NCBI GenBank assembly: GCA_903850545.1
Contig: CAINLW010000059.1
Location: 1-39,272 of the forward strand
Direction: 5' to 3'
DNA from: an uncultured bacterium
GTDB taxonomy: Bacteria > Patescibacteriota > Minisyncoccia > Phycocordibacterales > GWA1-40-21
DNA length: 39,272 nt
The notes beneath the pieces were generated by a model, which was given only the letters and a program-made list of their open reading frames with translations, was not told the origin of the DNA and ran no database searches. The position numbers and the translations under genes were made by a program. Shown here piece by piece: positions 1-39,218 of this stretch (the first letter of the stretch is position 1; each line of letters opens with the position of its first letter).

Positions 1-58
1 ACTACGTCCTTCATCGCTTATTAGAGTCAAGGCATCCACCGTGCGCCCTTAAATTTCC
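1..58 (-). rRNA. 23S ribosomal RNA, 5' end (truncated by window start)
   Basis: Reverse complement reads AAGGGCGCACGGTGGATGCCTTGACTCTAATAAGCGATGAAGGACGTAGT, matching the universally conserved 5' end of bacterial 23S rRNA. The exact mature 5' end is estimated. Confidence 0.93.
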
Positions 59-376
59 CATTAGGAAATTTAAAAACCACAATCTTTAACTAGTTTACAT
101 CGTAAACTAATAAATTTGTTTTAACCTGTTATATGGAATCAATTCCGTATAACAGTCTCGTCAAAATTAATTGACGAATTTTTTTAAATCGTATCAATCT
201 CTCTCCAAGAAAAATTGATCGATTCACCTGCCTGTCTACAGTATCTATAAAAGACCCAATCCACTTCGCGTGGAAAATTGGTGATACTATGACAGAATGA
301 AGATATAAATTTTAGTTATCCTCTTTCGAGAATCTCTGAAATCTTAATCTTATTTTTCAAGTTTCAGTCTTTCCGT

Positions 377-5187: not shown

Positions 5188-5808
5188 TTATTTATTAAAA
5201 ACTTTTGAGACAAGTTCTTCGTGTACTTTTTCTATAGTTTGCTCACCATTTACATCCAAAAAATCACAATCTTTATTTTGTCTAAAAAAGTTAGCACAAG
5301 GAAGAACCTCTTCTACAAACCAGCTCATTCTTTTATTTATTCCTTCTTCTGTATCGTCTTTTCTTCCCCTTATCAAAAGCCTGTCTCTTGCTGACTCATC
5401 GCTTATGTTTATATAAACAACCTTATATCTTGGTGTTTTATAAAACTTTAGTGTTCCATCGAGTAATATTGCTTCCGGAAGCTTTCTTGGGCATCCATCA
5501 AAAATAATATTCTCTTTTCCCGAAAAATTTTTGTTTAAATAGTTTGTCCAGAGATAAATAACAATGGACTCCATTACAAGACCTCCAGAATTGTGTACCT
5601 CTTTTGTAAGTTTTTCTAAATAAGTATCGCCTTTCATAAACTCTCTTATAAAAGCACCTGATTCAACATGGAGTGTTTTATTGTTATTTAACTCTTTAAG
5701 TTTCTTTTTTAAAAGCTCAACTTGTGTACCCTTTCCGCAACCAGATTTCCCCATAATAATGGTAATGACCGGTTCCTTCTTTTCTTCTTTTTTAAATATA
5801 TTTAACAT
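5188..5808 (-). CDS. adk: Adenylate kinase-like nucleoside monophosphate kinase
   Basis: P-loop IIMGKSGCGKGTQ, FDGCPRKLPEA, secY-adk-map gene order. Confidence 0.85.
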   Translation of the reverse strand: MLNIFKKEEKKEPVITIIMGKSGCGKGTQVELLKKKLKELNNNKTLHVESGAFIREFMKGDTYLEKLTKEVHNSGGLVMESIVIYLWTNYLNKNFSGKENIIFDGCPRKLPEAILLDGTLKFYKTPRYKVVYINISDESARDRLLIRGRKDDTEEGINKRMSWFVEEVLPCANFFRQNKDCDFLDVNGEQTIEKVHEELVSKVFNK

Positions 5809-5810
5809 TT

Positions 5811-5943
5811 ACCCGAGAAAATTTTTATTGATGAAAATGTTATTGTTTTACAAGCTCATATTTCTAATATTTAACCTAGTTTAATATATAAACTAAATTT
5901 TATAAAAGCATTTTCAATAACGTCAATAAAAACTTTAACGGGT
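5811..5943 (-). repeat. Palindromic element, family B copy 1 (adk leader)
   Basis: Minus strand ACCCGTTAAAGTTTTTATTGACGTTATTG...CAATAACATTTTCATCAATAAAAATTTTCTCGGGT, ending 2 nt before the adk ATG; TATAAT at 5951-5946 just upstream. Confidence 0.8.
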
Positions 5944-12465: not shown

Positions 12466-12526
12466 GATGATTTGTATTTAAATTTTCGTAGGATTTCGTT
12501 AATATTCGTAGTTTTATTTTCGCATA

Positions 12527-21912: not shown

Positions 21913-22273
21913 TAACGATACTAACGACAACTTTCTTTAAGATCCACGAGGAGCTATTGTTGCATATTTGGGGTGAAAAAACAAGCATTGAATATGCAAA
22001 AATAAAAACTACGAATAATAACGAAACCCTGCGAAAACCACCAAACGGAATCCGTCTTTGCGAGCGGAGTGTTGAAAAGCGAATACATGGAGCTTTTCAA
22101 AGACGGACTGAGCGAAGGCGAAGGAGTCGGGGTCGGCATAAATTTTCAGCAGAAAATTATATGTGATGCAATCCAGGTTAATTAAAGAAATTTTCCGAGG
22201 AAAGACCTCCAAAAGGCAAAAAGAAGGACTCACCTCAAATGAATGAGGAAGAATTACCTCTAAATTAAAGAAT

Positions 22274-23594: not shown

Positions 23595-23729
23595 ACCCGT
23601 TAAAGTTTTTACTGATGTGTTGAAAATGAGAAGTAAAAAATGCATTTTTTTATAAAAATAGCTAGATAACAAACTTCACTGTCATTTAACATCAACACCC
23701 TATTTTCGTCAGTAAAAATTTTCTCGGGT
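23595..23729 (+). repeat. Palindromic element, family B copy 2 (ftsK leader)
   Basis: TATAATTA-ACCCGTTAAAGTTTTTACTGA...TCAGTAAAAATTTTCTCGGGT-AAACATC-ATG. Confidence 0.82.
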
Positions 23730-23736
23730 AAACATC

Positions 23737-26013
23737 ATGGCAATAAAAAACAAAGAAAAAAAGAATCCTAAATCAACTCCAAAGGAAAATATTTTAAGCA
23801 GTATAAAAAACGAAACCAAACAAGGAATTATTGCGGTCGCTTTTTTTGTACTTGCAATTATTTTTACACTCGCTTCAATTAAAACTGGGGCTGATGGAAG
23901 CTTTGCAGGCCCAGTTGGTAAAGAGATCTATCACCTACTCTCCATACTTTTAGGTATTGGATATTTCTTAATTCCTATATTCTTTCTTATGCTTAGTATT
24001 TCTTTTTTTAAAGTTGAAGAAAGAGATTTTAATAAGTTAAAATTTTTTGGCGCTATATTATTTTTTATTTCAGGACTTGGAATGATTGATCTTGTATCAA
24101 AACACTACTGGACAGCTCAGGGTGGCATGCTCGGTGGAGTTATTTCTTCACCATTATTAAAAATGTTTGATTTTTATGCCAGCGCAATTATTTTGTTAGC
24201 AATACTTATTATCTCCTGCCTTATATTATTTGAAACAAGGATTACAGTCGAATCAATAATGTTTTGGAGAAAAGACAAAAAGGAAGATGACGACGATATA
24301 AAAGTAATTGCTGACAAAGCTGAAGCAGATGAAAAGAAAGAAGAAAAAGCTGAAGAAGAAAAAGAGGAAAGAAAAGACAAAAAAACATCAAAAGGTGTTT
24401 TCATCAAAAAAAATGAAGAAGACGAATCTGGAATAAAATTTAATCCAAAAGCAGTTGGAAATACAAAATATGTTCCTCCCCCACTATCACTCTTAGAAGA
24501 TGACAAAGGAAGAATCGTTTCTGGAGACATAAAAGCAAACGCAAATATCATAAAAAGAACTTTGCAAAACTTCGGTATAGATGTAGAAATGGATGAAGTT
24601 TCTATCGGGCCATCTGTTACAAGATATGCATTGAAGCCGGCCGAGGGGGTAAAAATTTCTAGGATTATGGGGTTGCAAAACGACCTTTCCCTTGCGCTTG
24701 CCGCTCACCCTCTGAGAATCGAAGCTCCAATCCCTGGAAAATCTCTTGTAGGAATTGAGATACCAAACTCGGTAAAGTCTACAGTCGGACTTGCTAACCT
24801 TATCGGCTCAGAAGAATTCCAAAAATCAGACAAACCCCTACTTATTACACTTGGAAAAGGAATTTCTGGAAAATCACATTTTGTTAATGTCGCCAAAATG
24901 CCACATGTGCTTGTTGCCGGAGCAACTGGAAGCGGTAAGTCTGTAACGATACATGCAATGATTACCTCCCTACTTTACAGAAACTCACCGGAAAATTTGA
25001 GATTTATTATGATTGATCCAAAAAGAGTCGAACTTACTTTATATAATAAAATTCCCCACCTTCTCACTCCAGTTATTACTGATGCAAAGAAAACCATTCT
25101 CGCTTTAAAATGGGCGACGAAAGAAATGGATCGTAGATATGATCTTTTGGAATTTCATGCTGCAAAGGATATAGATTCGTATCATAAAAATGTTTTAGCA
25201 CCTGAAATTAGAAAGATTGAGGAGTTAAAGAAAAAAGGTACTTATGATCCATCCAAGCACGTCGTACCAGAAACTATGCCTTTCATCGTTATTGTTATAG
25301 ATGAACTTGCAGATATTATGATGGCCTATCCAAGAGAACTCGAGGCTGGAATCGTGCGCTTGGCCCAAATGAGCCGTGCTGTCGGTATTCACCTCATTAT
25401 CTCAACACAAAGACCAAGCGTTAATGTCATTACCGGTATAATTAAAGCAAACATCCCTACAAGAATCGCGCTTCAGGTTGTATCACAAATAGATTCAAGA
25501 ACGATTTTGGATACTCCTGGTGCTGAAAAGCTTCTCGGGGCTGGAGACATGCTTTATATGGGAGGTGAGATGTCAAAACCTGTGAGAATTCAATCGGCTT
25601 TTGTTTCAGAAAAAGAAGTAAAAGATGTTGTTAAATATTTGGTAGATTCATACAGAGATGAGCTTATCGGCGGAGAAATTGACCTTACCGCTGTGACAAG
25701 TGGTGGAAGTGAAGATGATGGTGTTGGAGTATTTAACAGCCTAGAAGACGATGGTGGTGATGAACTTTATGAACAAGCAAAGGAAGAGGTTTTAAAAGCA
25801 GGAAAAGCATCTACTTCATACATACAGAGAAAACTTCGTGTCGGATATTCAAGAGCAGCCAGACTTATTGATTTGCTTGAACAAAAAGGAGTAATTGGTC
25901 CTGGTGATGGGGCAAGAGCGAGAGAGATAATTGGTAACGACAATAATTCTGAAACAACTGAGAAAGAAGTTAAATTGGAGGGGGTGGAACATAAAGATGG
26001 AGACTATTTGTAG
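23737..26013 (+). CDS. ftsK: DNA translocase FtsK/SpoIIIE
   Basis: HVLVAGATGSGKSVTIHAMITSLLYRNSPENLRFIMIDPKRVELTLY; gamma domain ASTSYIQRKLRVGYSRAARLIDLLEQKGVIGPGDGARAREI. Confidence 0.96.
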   Translation: MAIKNKEKKNPKSTPKENILSSIKNETKQGIIAVAFFVLAIIFTLASIKTGADGSFAGPVGKEIYHLLSILLGIGYFLIPIFFLMLSISFFKVEERDFNKLKFFGAILFFISGLGMIDLVSKHYWTAQGGMLGGVISSPLLKMFDFYASAIILLAILIISCLILFETRITVESIMFWRKDKKEDDDDIKVIADKAEADEKKEEKAEEEKEERKDKKTSKGVFIKKNEEDESGIKFNPKAVGNTKYVPPPLSLLEDDKGRIVSGDIKANANIIKRTLQNFGIDVEMDEVSIGPSVTRYALKPAEGVKISRIMGLQNDLSLALAAHPLRIEAPIPGKSLVGIEIPNSVKSTVGLANLIGSEEFQKSDKPLLITLGKGISGKSHFVNVAKMPHVLVAGATGSGKSVTIHAMITSLLYRNSPENLRFIMIDPKRVELTLYNKIPHLLTPVITDAKKTILALKWATKEMDRRYDLLEFHAAKDIDSYHKNVLAPEIRKIEELKKKGTYDPSKHVVPETMPFIVIVIDELADIMMAYPRELEAGIVRLAQMSRAVGIHLIISTQRPSVNVITGIIKANIPTRIALQVVSQIDSRTILDTPGAEKLLGAGDMLYMGGEMSKPVRIQSAFVSEKEVKDVVKYLVDSYRDELIGGEIDLTAVTSGGSEDDGVGVFNSLEDDGGDELYEQAKEEVLKAGKASTSYIQRKLRVGYSRAARLIDLLEQKGVIGPGDGARAREIIGNDNNSETTEKEVKLEGVEHKDGDYL

Positions 26014-34699: not shown

Positions 34700-35284
34700 T
34701 TATAAATGTGTCTCGTTTAAAGCATTATTTATATCCAAAATAGCCATTTTTTTCTTATTATCAAACCGATTTAAAGTTTCTATTGATAATTCATTGTCTT
34801 TTACAAAGTCTAACAAATCAAAGGATTCTTTAAAATAACCAAGATGATACAAAATTCTGAGTACAGTAATAGTTTCTAAATTTTTAATATTTTGCAAAAC
34901 TAATTCATTTTTTGATAGAAAATTATAAAAAGACTCGACACTAGAATATAGTCCTTCGTTTTTTTCTTCACCATGAAGTAATCTCAAAAGTAAAGAGAAA
35001 ATGTTTTTTACAGTTATAAGTTTATTGGTGTTTTTTATAAAATCCCCTCTTTCTATAGTTTCGACACTGGTTATTCGCCAAACGTGTTTACCTTTTACCA
35101 AAGAAATTTTTATTAAACAAAAATCTTGCAAATGCCCTTTCAGTTTTGATTTATCCAAACGCACGCCTTGTGCCACTGCTTTTATAAAACCCAAATCTTG
35201 AGTAAGCAAGAAATAATATTTATTCGCCTCCCCTATCGGCGAGCTTTTTATAATTATAGCTTTGGTGGTATAGATGTGATGCAT
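34700..35284 (-). CDS. recO: DNA repair protein RecO
   Basis: YTTKAIIIKSSPIGEANKYYFLLTQDLGFIKAVAQGVRLDKSKLKGHLQDF. Confidence 0.85.
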   Translation of the reverse strand: MHHIYTTKAIIIKSSPIGEANKYYFLLTQDLGFIKAVAQGVRLDKSKLKGHLQDFCLIKISLVKGKHVWRITSVETIERGDFIKNTNKLITVKNIFSLLLRLLHGEEKNEGLYSSVESFYNFLSKNELVLQNIKNLETITVLRILYHLGYFKESFDLLDFVKDNELSIETLNRFDNKKKMAILDINNALNETHL

Positions 35285-35286
35285 TT

Positions 35287-35423
35287 ACCCGAGAAAATTT
35301 TTGCCAATAAAAATTGTTTGTTCCGACTTTATCATAGATATTATTATATCACAGCGTTTTATCTACACATTTTTATCTCCTTAACTCAATTTTTAACAAA
35401 CATTGGCAAAAACTTTAACGGGT
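35287..35423 (-). repeat. Palindromic element, family B copy 3 (recO leader)
   Basis: Minus strand ACCCGTTAAAGTTTTTGCCAATGTTTG...CAAACAATTTTTATTGGCAAAAATTTTCTCGGGT, ending 2 nt before the recO ATG. Confidence 0.82.
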
Positions 35424-35430
35424 GAATTAG

Positions 35431-35553
35431 TCTAAAGTCCATAAAGTCAAAAAGAATTTAATATTATTCATCAATGACAAAGAGTGTTTTCGCTTTGCGA
35501 AAACCCTTTTTGTTTTTTGACTTTACAGACTTTATGAACTTTAGACTTTTGAC
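35431..35553. repeat. Nested intergenic inverted repeat around a terminator hairpin
   Basis: GTCTAAAGTCCATAAAGTCAAAA / TTTTTGACTTTACAGACTTTATGAACTTTAGAC flanking gtgttttcgctttgcgaaaaccc. Confidence 0.65.
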
Positions 35554-38500
35554 TAGTTTATAACAACTCTTGCTTTCAATCCCTCAAGTTCGATCAATTC
35601 TCCACCTTCCATTTTTTCAAAGCTAATTTCTTTAAGTCCTGTGGTCTTTGAAATTTCATTGTTAAATTTTGTAAAAAATTTCTTGCCAACTTCGTCTGTA
35701 TCAACAACAAGCGTGACTATATCACTTGGATTTAATTTTTTCTCCTTCCTCATTTCCTGAACTGCGCGGACAACATCTCTCATCATTCCCTCTTCTTTTA
35801 ACTCCTTTGTTAGAACTGTATCAAGTTCAACATCTGTTGAAATATTTTGATCAAAAATAATTTCTTTTACATTTACTTCTTCTTTTATTAACGCTGTGTA
35901 CTCATCTGTCAATTTCAACTTTTTACCCGTTAAAGTTTTGACTGACACATTAGACTGGTCGTCTAATGTAAGGAAAACTTCAGGTTTTCCATCAGTCAAA
36001 ATTTTCTCGGGTATACTTTTGACTTTTAGACTACTTAAGGGTTGTCGGACTTTCATTCCAGCTTTTGCGCGAGCTTCAAGTCCGAGAGATACTGCCAATC
36101 TCGTTTCCTTCATGTTTTCCAAAATTTCGTTTTCCTCTTTGGAAAGTTCGCCAACATATTCTTCCGTCCAATTTTCAAGATGTACACTCTCCTTTTCCAT
36201 TCCGCCAGTTATCTTCAAATATAAATCTTCAGCAAAAAAAGGCATTGAAGGAGCAACGAGTTTAGAAAATTCAAGAATAACAGTTCTTGTAGTAAACATT
36301 GCTGAATGTCGATCTTCTGGATCTTCAGATTTAAATCTGTCACGAGACCTTCTCAAAAACCATGTGGAAACATCATCAACAAAATCTCCAATAGGTCTTG
36401 TGGCTCTATCGAGCTCATTGTTATCTGTAGCTTTTGTGATTTGTGTCGCTGTCTCTTTTAATCTTGCAAGAATCCATTTATCCAAAATATTTTTGGGTTG
36501 TGAATATTTTTCTATCTTATTTAAATCCAAGTCAAAACCACCATACATTTCAAAAAAAGAATAAACATTTTGAAATCTCATAATAATTTTCTTTAAAATT
36601 TCATCTACTCCTTTGTTCGAAAATTTCAAATCTTCTGCTCGCATTGCCGGAGATGATAGTAAATAATACCTCAAAGCATCTGCACTATAACTTGTAACAA
36701 CATCCATAGGGTCAGGATAATTATTCAATCTCTTTGACATTTTTTGTCCATTTTCAGCAAGAACCGTTCCATTTACAATAACACTCTTATATGAAGATTC
36801 TCCAAAAAGAGCGACTGAAAGAACTATCATTGAGTAAAACCATCCTCTTGTCTGATCAACTCCTTCTGCAATAAAATCTGCAGGATATCCGATTCCTTTT
36901 GCCGGATTAAATTTATCTAAATTTTCAAATGGATAGTGAGATTCGGCATAAGGCATCGAACCTGATTCAAACCAACAATCAAAAACTTCTGGAACCCTTT
37001 TCATTTCCCCACCACATTTACATTTCAAAGTGACCTCATCAATAAATGGTCTATGTAAATCAAGTTCGTAATTTCTATTGTGAGGAATTGGTGCAAAAAG
37101 AATTTCTTTTATTTCAGAATTTTCAATAAACGGTTCACCTGCTTTTCTTATAGTTAATGCTTGTTCTGGGGTCATACCAAACACACCAGCAAACATTAAC
37201 CAGATAGGAGTATTATGACCAACAACTAAGATGTTTTTACCTTCATTTTTTTTATCAACATCATACATAAATTCTGTTATCCTGTTTTTAACAGTCATAT
37301 AATTTTCTCCGCCCTTTGGAGTTTTCGTAAATTTTGCTTCTCGAGATTCAAAAAAAGCTTGGTATTCTGCGTCTGATTTGCCATCCATTTCACCCACAAA
37401 TATTTCATGTAATCGTTCATCAAAAATAATTTGATCTTTTGGATAACCGATTTTATCTGCAATTACTTCTGCTGTTTCTTTCGTTCTTAAAAATGGAGAG
37501 CAGTAAATAACATCTATTTTTCCACTTTCTTTTGTAAGTAATTTTGAATCAATAAGTTTTTCTCCAGCTACTTTTGCTTCCTCTTTTCCCTTCTCTGTAA
37601 GATGATGTTTTGTTTTGGGATTTGAACTAAGGATTTTTAAAACATTACCTTCAGACTCCCCATGTCTTACGACAACAAAAGTATTTCTGCCACCAGTTTT
37701 TTCTTTTATATCTTGAATCGAACCAATAAATTCTTTTGTTGGACAACAATTACATCTCCAAACTGGAAGCGGTGCACCCCAAAATCTCGATCTTGATATT
37801 GACCAGTCACGAGCTCCCTCAAGCCACTTTCCAAATCTTCCATCTCCGATTTCCTCCGGAACCCATTTAACTTTTTTGTTTGCCTCCACGAGTTTATCTC
37901 TAAATTTGGTAACTTCAACAAACCATGAGCTCATTGCGTAATTTAAAAGTGGTGTATCACATCTCCAACAATGTGGATATGAGTGAATAAATTTTTCCTT
38001 TGCATAAAGAGTTCCTTTTCCAGCCAAAAACTTTATAACTTCAATGTCAGCAGCCTGAGGATTCTCTTTTGGTTTTACTTTTTCTTCATTAAAATCTTTA
38101 ACTTCTTTTTTGAATCTTCCGTCCATTCCGACATGCTGGATAAAAGGTAGTTTTTTTTCTTTACCAAGATTCATATCATCTTCTCCAAAAGCAGGTGCAA
38201 TATGAACTATTCCCGTACCATCCTCAGTGGTTACAAAGCTGGCATCATATACTTTAAATCCATTTTCTAGGTTTTTTAATTCTGAATTATTATAATAATC
38301 AAAAAGTGGTTTATATGACATTCCAATCAAAGCTTTTCCTGGGATTTTTTCTAAAATCTGATGCGATTCAACAATTGTAGAAAGTCTTGATTCAGCCAAA
38401 ATAAATTTTTCCTCGCTTGCCACGAGGTCAGCAGACTTTTCGTGGACTAGTTTTATTTTTACATAATCAATATCAGGATTTATGGCTAAAGCAACATTTC

Positions 38501-39218
38501 CAGGAAGAGTCCACGGGGTTGTGGTCCACGCCAAGAAAAATGTACCAGGATCTTCAACTAATTCAAATTTTACTGTAACTGAAATATCGGTAATGTCTTT
38601 GTATCCTTGAGCAACTTCAAAATTTGAAAGTGTAGTGCCACAATGAGGGCAAAGATGCATAGATTTAAAACCTTCATAGACTAAACCTTTATTATTTAAT
38701 TCTTTAAATATCCACCAAACTGTTTCGGTATATGATGGGTTCATTGTTCTATAATCATTTTCCATATCAACAAAACGACCCATACGGGGTATAATTTTTT
38801 TCCACTCATCTGCATAGATAAAAACTTTTGTCCTAGCGATATCATTAAATTTCTCCAAACCAAAATCTTCAATGTCTTTTTTTGATTTTAAACCTATTTC
38901 TTGTTCAACTATATTCTCAATCGGAAGACCATGAGTATCCCATCCCCATCTTCTAGCTACATACTTTCCTTTCATCGTCTGGTACCTGCCAACATAATCT
39001 TTCATTGTTCCTGCAAGAATGTGTCCATAATGCGGAAGTCCTGTTGCAAACGGTGGGCCGTCATAAAACACAAATTTACCATTTGGAGCATCTTTTTCCA
39101 AAGTTTTTTTGAAAATCTCTTTTTCTTGCCAAAATTTTAGAATTTCCTCTTCTCTTTCAGCTATTTTACTTTTTACCACAACCTTTTCTTTTTTTTGTTC
39201 TTTATTATCTTCAGTCAT
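35553..39218 (-). CDS. ileS: Isoleucyl-tRNA synthetase with inserted histidine-phosphatase domain
   Basis: GLPHYGHILAGTMKD (HIGH), GWDTHGLPIE, NGQKMSKRLNNYPDP (KMSKS-like), WFESGSMPYAESHYPFE; inserted VVVRHGESEGN...VVGHNTPIW. Confidence 0.96.
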   Translation of the reverse strand: MTEDNKEQKKEKVVVKSKIAEREEEILKFWQEKEIFKKTLEKDAPNGKFVFYDGPPFATGLPHYGHILAGTMKDYVGRYQTMKGKYVARRWGWDTHGLPIENIVEQEIGLKSKKDIEDFGLEKFNDIARTKVFIYADEWKKIIPRMGRFVDMENDYRTMNPSYTETVWWIFKELNNKGLVYEGFKSMHLCPHCGTTLSNFEVAQGYKDITDISVTVKFELVEDPGTFFLAWTTTPWTLPGNVALAINPDIDYVKIKLVHEKSADLVASEEKFILAESRLSTIVESHQILEKIPGKALIGMSYKPLFDYYNNSELKNLENGFKVYDASFVTTEDGTGIVHIAPAFGEDDMNLGKEKKLPFIQHVGMDGRFKKEVKDFNEEKVKPKENPQAADIEVIKFLAGKGTLYAKEKFIHSYPHCWRCDTPLLNYAMSSWFVEVTKFRDKLVEANKKVKWVPEEIGDGRFGKWLEGARDWSISRSRFWGAPLPVWRCNCCPTKEFIGSIQDIKEKTGGRNTFVVVRHGESEGNVLKILSSNPKTKHHLTEKGKEEAKVAGEKLIDSKLLTKESGKIDVIYCSPFLRTKETAEVIADKIGYPKDQIIFDERLHEIFVGEMDGKSDAEYQAFFESREAKFTKTPKGGENYMTVKNRITEFMYDVDKKNEGKNILVVGHNTPIWLMFAGVFGMTPEQALTIRKAGEPFIENSEIKEILFAPIPHNRNYELDLHRPFIDEVTLKCKCGGEMKRVPEVFDCWFESGSMPYAESHYPFENLDKFNPAKGIGYPADFIAEGVDQTRGWFYSMIVLSVALFGESSYKSVIVNGTVLAENGQKMSKRLNNYPDPMDVVTSYSADALRYYLLSSPAMRAEDLKFSNKGVDEILKKIIMRFQNVYSFFEMYGGFDLDLNKIEKYSQPKNILDKWILARLKETATQITKATDNNELDRATRPIGDFVDDVSTWFLRRSRDRFKSEDPEDRHSAMFTTRTVILEFSKLVAPSMPFFAEDLYLKITGGMEKESVHLENWTEEYVGELSKEENEILENMKETRLAVSLGLEARAKAGMKVRQPLSSLKVKSIPEKILTDGKPEVFLTLDDQSNVSVKTLTGKKLKLTDEYTALIKEEVNVKEIIFDQNISTDVELDTVLTKELKEEGMMRDVVRAVQEMRKEKKLNPSDIVTLVVDTDEVGKKFFTKFNNEISKTTGLKEISFEKMEGGELIELEGLKARVVIN
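35925..36012 (+). repeat. Palindromic element, family B copy 4 (inside ileS reading frame)
   Basis: ACCCGTTAAAGTTTTGACTGA + hairpin ACATTAGACtggtcGTCTAATGT + hairpin GGAAAACttcagGTTTTCC + TCAGTCAAAATTTTCTCGGGT. Confidence 0.85.

Follow-up and report, generated by a model that had tools for sequence, protein, structure and literature searches.

Structure of the palindromic insert in ileS

The stretch of DNA analysed here (39,272 nt, hereafter called the window) is part of a 985-kb draft genome in 64 contigs. It carries ileS, the gene for isoleucyl-tRNA synthetase (IleRS), on the minus strand at 35553..39218, where an ORF of 1221 aa was assigned with Pfam. Inside this gene and antisense to it lies a palindromic element of 88 nt (ACCCGTTAAAG...TTTTCTCGGGT; 35925..36012, plus strand), recognized by its fold and by its copies elsewhere in the genome, and hereafter called SHORT. 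The original prediction placed an in-frame palindrome here, and the ORF indeed runs through the element without interruption. Together with 2 additional nucleotides, the element constitutes an inserted unit of 90 nt (35925..36014, minus strand), which corresponds to 30 codons and to IleRS residues 1069-1098, with the peptide IPEKILTDGKPEVFLTLDDQSNVSVKTLTG that had been predicted. In the IleRS of the window, a histidine-phosphatase domain (37152-37676, minus strand, residues ~515-689; PF00300, E 3.7e-31) is inserted as well.

SHORT folds in the following manner. The outer arm of the basal stem P1, ACCCG (35925..35929), pairs with CGGGT at 36008-36012, and these two pentamers are the fixed foot of the element. 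A conserved TT/CT internal loop, seen in both the alignment and the fold, separates the outer arm from the inner arm AAAGTTTTGACTGA (35932..35945), which forms 14 bp with 35992-36005 and is likewise based on fold and alignment. P1 encloses hairpin 1 (35947..35969; 9 bp, loop of 5) and hairpin 2 (35972..35990; 8 bp, loop of 3) in the fold. RNA folding against shuffled sequences gave -41.8 kcal/mol (z -10.6) for the plus strand and -38.8 kcal/mol (z -8.4) for the ileS-sense minus strand, and no shuffle matched the stability of the element on either strand. The three-way junction of P1 and the two hairpins, which had been proposed from the letters of the sequence, is thus reproduced on both strands.

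The site is directly seen to be empty in relatives. IleRS matches are present in all 60 relatives searched, and the same-genus enzymes align to residues 4-1068 and then to residues 1099-1220, back-to-back, with nothing between. The insert is missing from every IleRS C-terminus read (29 of 29 relatives), and the length of the loop at this site is variable. At the DNA level, the G002 orthologue reads AAAGTAAAAAGT joined directly to GAAAAATTA, while the window reads AAAGTCAAAAGT, the 90 nt and AAAAAGTTG; when the 30 codons are dropped, the window IleRS matches that of G002 over 160 residues without a gap. The relatives read contain no homologous protein segment lacking the palindrome, a finding that would have pointed to ordinary protein sequence, and the inserted DNA is a repeat that occurs elsewhere. 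One detail of the original prediction falls, namely that short ACTTTT-like flanking repeats might be a target duplication. The inserted stretch is precisely 90 nt long, and the AAAAGT-like sequence on either side has a counterpart in the empty G002 orthologue; these flanks are therefore ancestral codons, and not a duplication.

How is the insert accommodated in the protein? We predicted the structure of the C-terminal 342 residues of IleRS with AlphaFold2 from an alignment of 29 rows (mean pLDDT 86.7). Within this fragment, residues 192-216 and 218-220 are the only ones with a pLDDT under 50, and the insert occupies its residues 190-219, in the connection between a strand and a helix. In the solved IleRS structure 8c8u, a short connection is found at the same position. 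The insert is thus predicted to be a disordered loop within a confidently modelled domain, and the simplest reading is that it would be a translated and tolerated loop of the enzyme.

Further coding copies of SHORT

Using covariance models and a scan for the end motifs, we located SHORT copies in the genomes G000, G002, G003, G004, G007, and G020. Five more of them lie in frame within genes, spread over two sister genomes: in an rnhA-like gene (L082), a gene for an HI0933-like flavoprotein (L083), leuS (L090, in G004), typA/bipA (L096), and a Mur-ligase-like gene (L108), which was named from sequence reading and whose copy is diverged but still paired. Pfam confirms the host families IleRS, RNase H, HI0933-like, LeuRS, and BipA. 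All six coding copies are antisense to their genes, 88 nt long, free of stop codons and read in one common frame, and their peptides form one family of the type [I/L/S]PEKILTDGKSEIFRALDKKSNASVKTLTG, with the stretch IPEKILTDGKPEVFLTLDDQSNVSVK in the ileS insert and SPEKILTDGKSEIFR in the TypA insert. Paired changes preserve the palindrome among the coding copies (GACTGA/TCAGTC, GCCTGA/TCAGGC, ACCTGA/TCAGGT, and GGCTGA/TCAGCC). The matching length and the open frame occur together in 6/6 coding copies, as compared to 4/18 non-coding copies (a count that excludes those on C100, C9, C93, and C48 of G004), giving a Fisher value of ~0.0016, calculated by hand (210/134596 = 0.0016) as a simple statistic on copies that are related to one another.

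The empty-site comparison with G002 covers five of the six genes. The joined flanks give a gapless junction for ileS, typA, and the HI0933-like gene, and a junction with a one-residue offset for rnhA. For leuS, no clean empty orthologue was found; the G002 match, at 52% identity, is possibly a paralogue, which makes the empty site less direct there. The LeuRS of G004 also contains an inserted NUDIX domain (PF00293; L090, residues ~414-535) besides the palindrome insert.

Two SHORT copies have their interior flipped relative to the termini: one at L039 15905-15993, which precedes a lemA-like gene, and the other at L069 1501-1588, which precedes an ATG. Several intergenic copies (L047, L046, L044, L125, L126, and L128) are nested in another repeat, with flanks of the type TTCGTAG...ATTCGTTC or AAATTCGCAT. 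TTCGTAG-like motifs are also present at 12483-12520 and 22000-22037 of the window.

LONG elements ahead of start codons

Was the original prediction right that the same family also occupies gene leaders? Related copies with common termini are indeed found there, but they constitute a separate subfamily, hereafter called LONG, with a different, pseudoknotted interior, and on account of this interior the copy in ileS and those in the leaders cannot be counted as a single family. The window contains three LONG elements. Those at 5811..5943 (minus strand) and 35287..35423 (minus strand) join a start codon as CGGGT-AA-ATG, the ATG belonging to an adenylate-kinase-like gene (5188-5808) and a recO-like gene (34700-35284), respectively, while the third, at 23595..23729 (plus strand), lies ahead of ftsK (23737-26013). 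A TATAAT hexamer stands 2 nt upstream of the first and the third.

LONG is mostly 131-141 nt in size. It is oriented in the sense direction, usually with an ATG 2-9 nt downstream, in dozens of genes. Flanks were analysed for 64 distinct copies of 120-150 nt; they follow the pattern TT[A/C]-element-AAA, and in 33 of the 64 copies a TATAAT (0-1 mismatch) is located exactly 2 nt upstream. The elements are missing from the G002 orthologues, as exemplified by TCTTA-element-AA-ATG in G001 versus TTCTTA-ATG in G002, and in G002 the commonest distance from an exact TATAAT to the ATG is 6-8 nt, as in leaderless genes. Some copies stand in tandem, separated by 2 nt, including two in the leader of ileS in G003 (L050 2157-2427), the gene that in the window harbours a SHORT copy internally. 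Only 4 orthologous gene groups with LONG are common among G000, G001, G003, and G004, out of more than 50. The sites are thus mostly species-specific, so LONG looks mobile, and a vertically inherited regulon is ruled out.

An H-type pseudoknot can form in most LONG copies. Its two sides covary: the 5′ and 3′ halves of the same copy pair with a score of 11.97, as compared to 8.15 with permuted partners, and 0 of 5000 permutations reached the score of the true partners. This is a simple statistic that ignores the kinship among the copies, and paired changes in inverted repeats can also arise at the DNA level. The LONG copies may serve as leaders. A tentative extension, which we consider possible though doubtful, sees LONG as a mobile 5′ leader with a pseudoknot. 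It would settle precisely ahead of a start codon, with either an upstream stop codon or a leaderless promoter (TATAAT, 2 nt away) on its other side, and would then control how translation of that gene begins or how its 5′ end is processed; SHORT would be a pseudoknot-free derivative that turned into a protein-coding palindrome.

Mobilization, interpretation and known systems

Among the 297 genomes of the order, the elements were found only in this genus, in one further member of its family (G007), and in two genomes from elsewhere in the order (G020 and G101). Phages gave no SHORT or LONG matches, and viral contigs gave no match to the exact LONG-plus-ATG pattern. In an Rfam search of the window and the element-bearing loci, the elements matched no family, including ribozymes and introns. 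The same search yielded a group I intron match beside two tRNAs, downstream of an element in G007 (L057 2662-2885; 49.6 bits, just under the cut-off of 50), and, where the contig of the window ends (window 1-62, minus strand), part of a bacterial LSU rRNA (E 1.2e-4, below the gathering score).

The elements possess terminal inverted repeats, as in a MITE of a DDE transposon. Each insertion adds the element plus 2 nt, and these 2 nt do not consistently repeat the other flank, as they would in a target site duplication. Among the element matches of G000, no pair of ends encloses an ORF as a full-length transposon would; the other genomes were partly read. A PF01797 (Y1/RAYT) match was found neither in G001, which is 95% complete and has many LONG copies, nor in G020, both of which bear elements, and a RAYT/Y1 transposase is thereby ruled out as the motor. 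The common termini of SHORT and LONG suggest one recognition system, and we infer that a putative trans-acting enzyme probably moves both forms by recognizing the common terminal stem.

We therefore arrive at the following explanation, which we hold with high confidence as a whole. SHORT would be a non-autonomous, MITE-like palindrome that entered, as a unit of 90 nt, a variable loop on the surface of the C-terminal part of IleRS. The sole antisense frame left open by the 88-nt length would be translated, producing a disordered loop of 30 residues that the enzyme would tolerate. SHORT elements have likewise entered five or more further conserved genes in sister species, and the LONG sister, with its common termini, lies at start codons. 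The genomes of the genus are all incomplete draft assemblies of 20-140 contigs, and the evidence throughout comes from sequence.

Could the peptide never be made? The byp elements of yeast mitochondria are inserts that ribosomes skip, and the ileS palindrome might similarly be bypassed in its folded state or excised from the mRNA. The great stability of the mRNA-sense fold (-38.8 kcal/mol) fits such a process, as does the resemblance of the LONG relatives to functional structured RNAs. However, neither skipping nor excision needs an open frame, and every coding copy keeps the gene frame free of stops within its 90-nt unit, whereas most non-coding copies would break it; moreover, the Rfam search assigned no ribozyme or intron to the elements. 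The open frame and the multiple-of-three length thus argue for translation, bypassing or removal being a formal option that we regard as very unlikely, and we take it as probable that ribosomes read the insert and that the enzyme tolerates it.

If the peptide is made, the loop might have been domesticated, that is, retained for a function of the host protein such as binding or regulation. The conservation of one peptide family over six genes with intact frames speaks for domestication, but none of the relatives read shares the insertion in ileS, the segment is predicted to be disordered, and the host genes are functionally unrelated, which makes domestication very unlikely. An ordinary lineage-specific protein loop whose DNA is palindromic by chance would suit a naturally variable IleRS loop; it is refuted by the repeat family, with near-identical DNA in unrelated genes and intergenic sites, the z of -10.6 and sites empty in all relatives compared, and we assign it a negligible probability. 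The preferred explanation, a tolerated coding palindrome, has wider meaning. A case in Patescibacteria, in which several essential enzymes have both filled and empty sites, would indicate that selfish DNA compatible with translation has evolved repeatedly in reduced genomes. The LONG elements raise the question of how dozens of copies of a mobile structured RNA can stand before the start codons of normally leaderless genes without silencing them. The literature searched yielded nothing on leaderless translation in the candidate phyla radiation or on Taylorbacteria repeats.

Which known systems do these elements resemble? Dispersed palindromes with a conserved foot also characterize the REP/RAYT system (PMC3733652), although no GTAG/CGTC foot is seen here. 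The Correia/NEMIS elements of Neisseria exist as 107-bp and 155-bp forms, of which the short one has an open frame and enters ORFs, while the long one almost never does, and they carry target site duplications and TA termini (PMC2229807). The two related size classes here, one short and coding and the other long and non-coding, recall this arrangement without a claim of membership; however, no duplication is seen, and LONG has a pseudoknot and lies in the sense direction next to start codons.

The closest likeness is to the Rickettsia palindromic elements (RPE; Ogata 2000, 2002), described in reviews as palindromes of ~100-150 bp that are inserted in frame and translated in conserved, mutually unrelated genes, each family having its own conserved peptide and intergenic copies occurring as well; for one RPE-bearing enzyme, activity is reported with the insert in place (PMC2229807, PMC10969869). 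Wolbachia palindromic elements are likewise described as palindromic repeats that encode protein within a reduced genome (Ogata 2005; PMC2229807), again in another phylum and likened here by description alone. As in RPE, a short repeated palindrome with stable hairpins interrupts several unrelated protein genes without a frameshift, relatives have empty sites, and the copies share one reading frame in which the peptide is conserved. The RPE-like reading originally given to the ileS insertion is borne out by the ileS empty sites, and the five additional copies that lie in frame in the two sister genomes make the comparison apt; it concerns anatomy and consequence and not sequence, and membership is not claimed. 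The present elements differ from RPE in the phylum, the length of 88 nt or 30 codons, the three-way junction, the ACCCG...CGGGT foot, and the LONG sister at start codons. What is new beyond the earlier-described protein-coding palindromes of Rickettsia and Wolbachia is the lineage, the coupling to a pseudoknotted sister family close to start codons, and the precise 90-nt unit. Since the range of the elements is narrow, we assume an origin independent of RPE, and the analogy supports viewing the elements of Patescibacteria as a probably convergent, RPE-like case.
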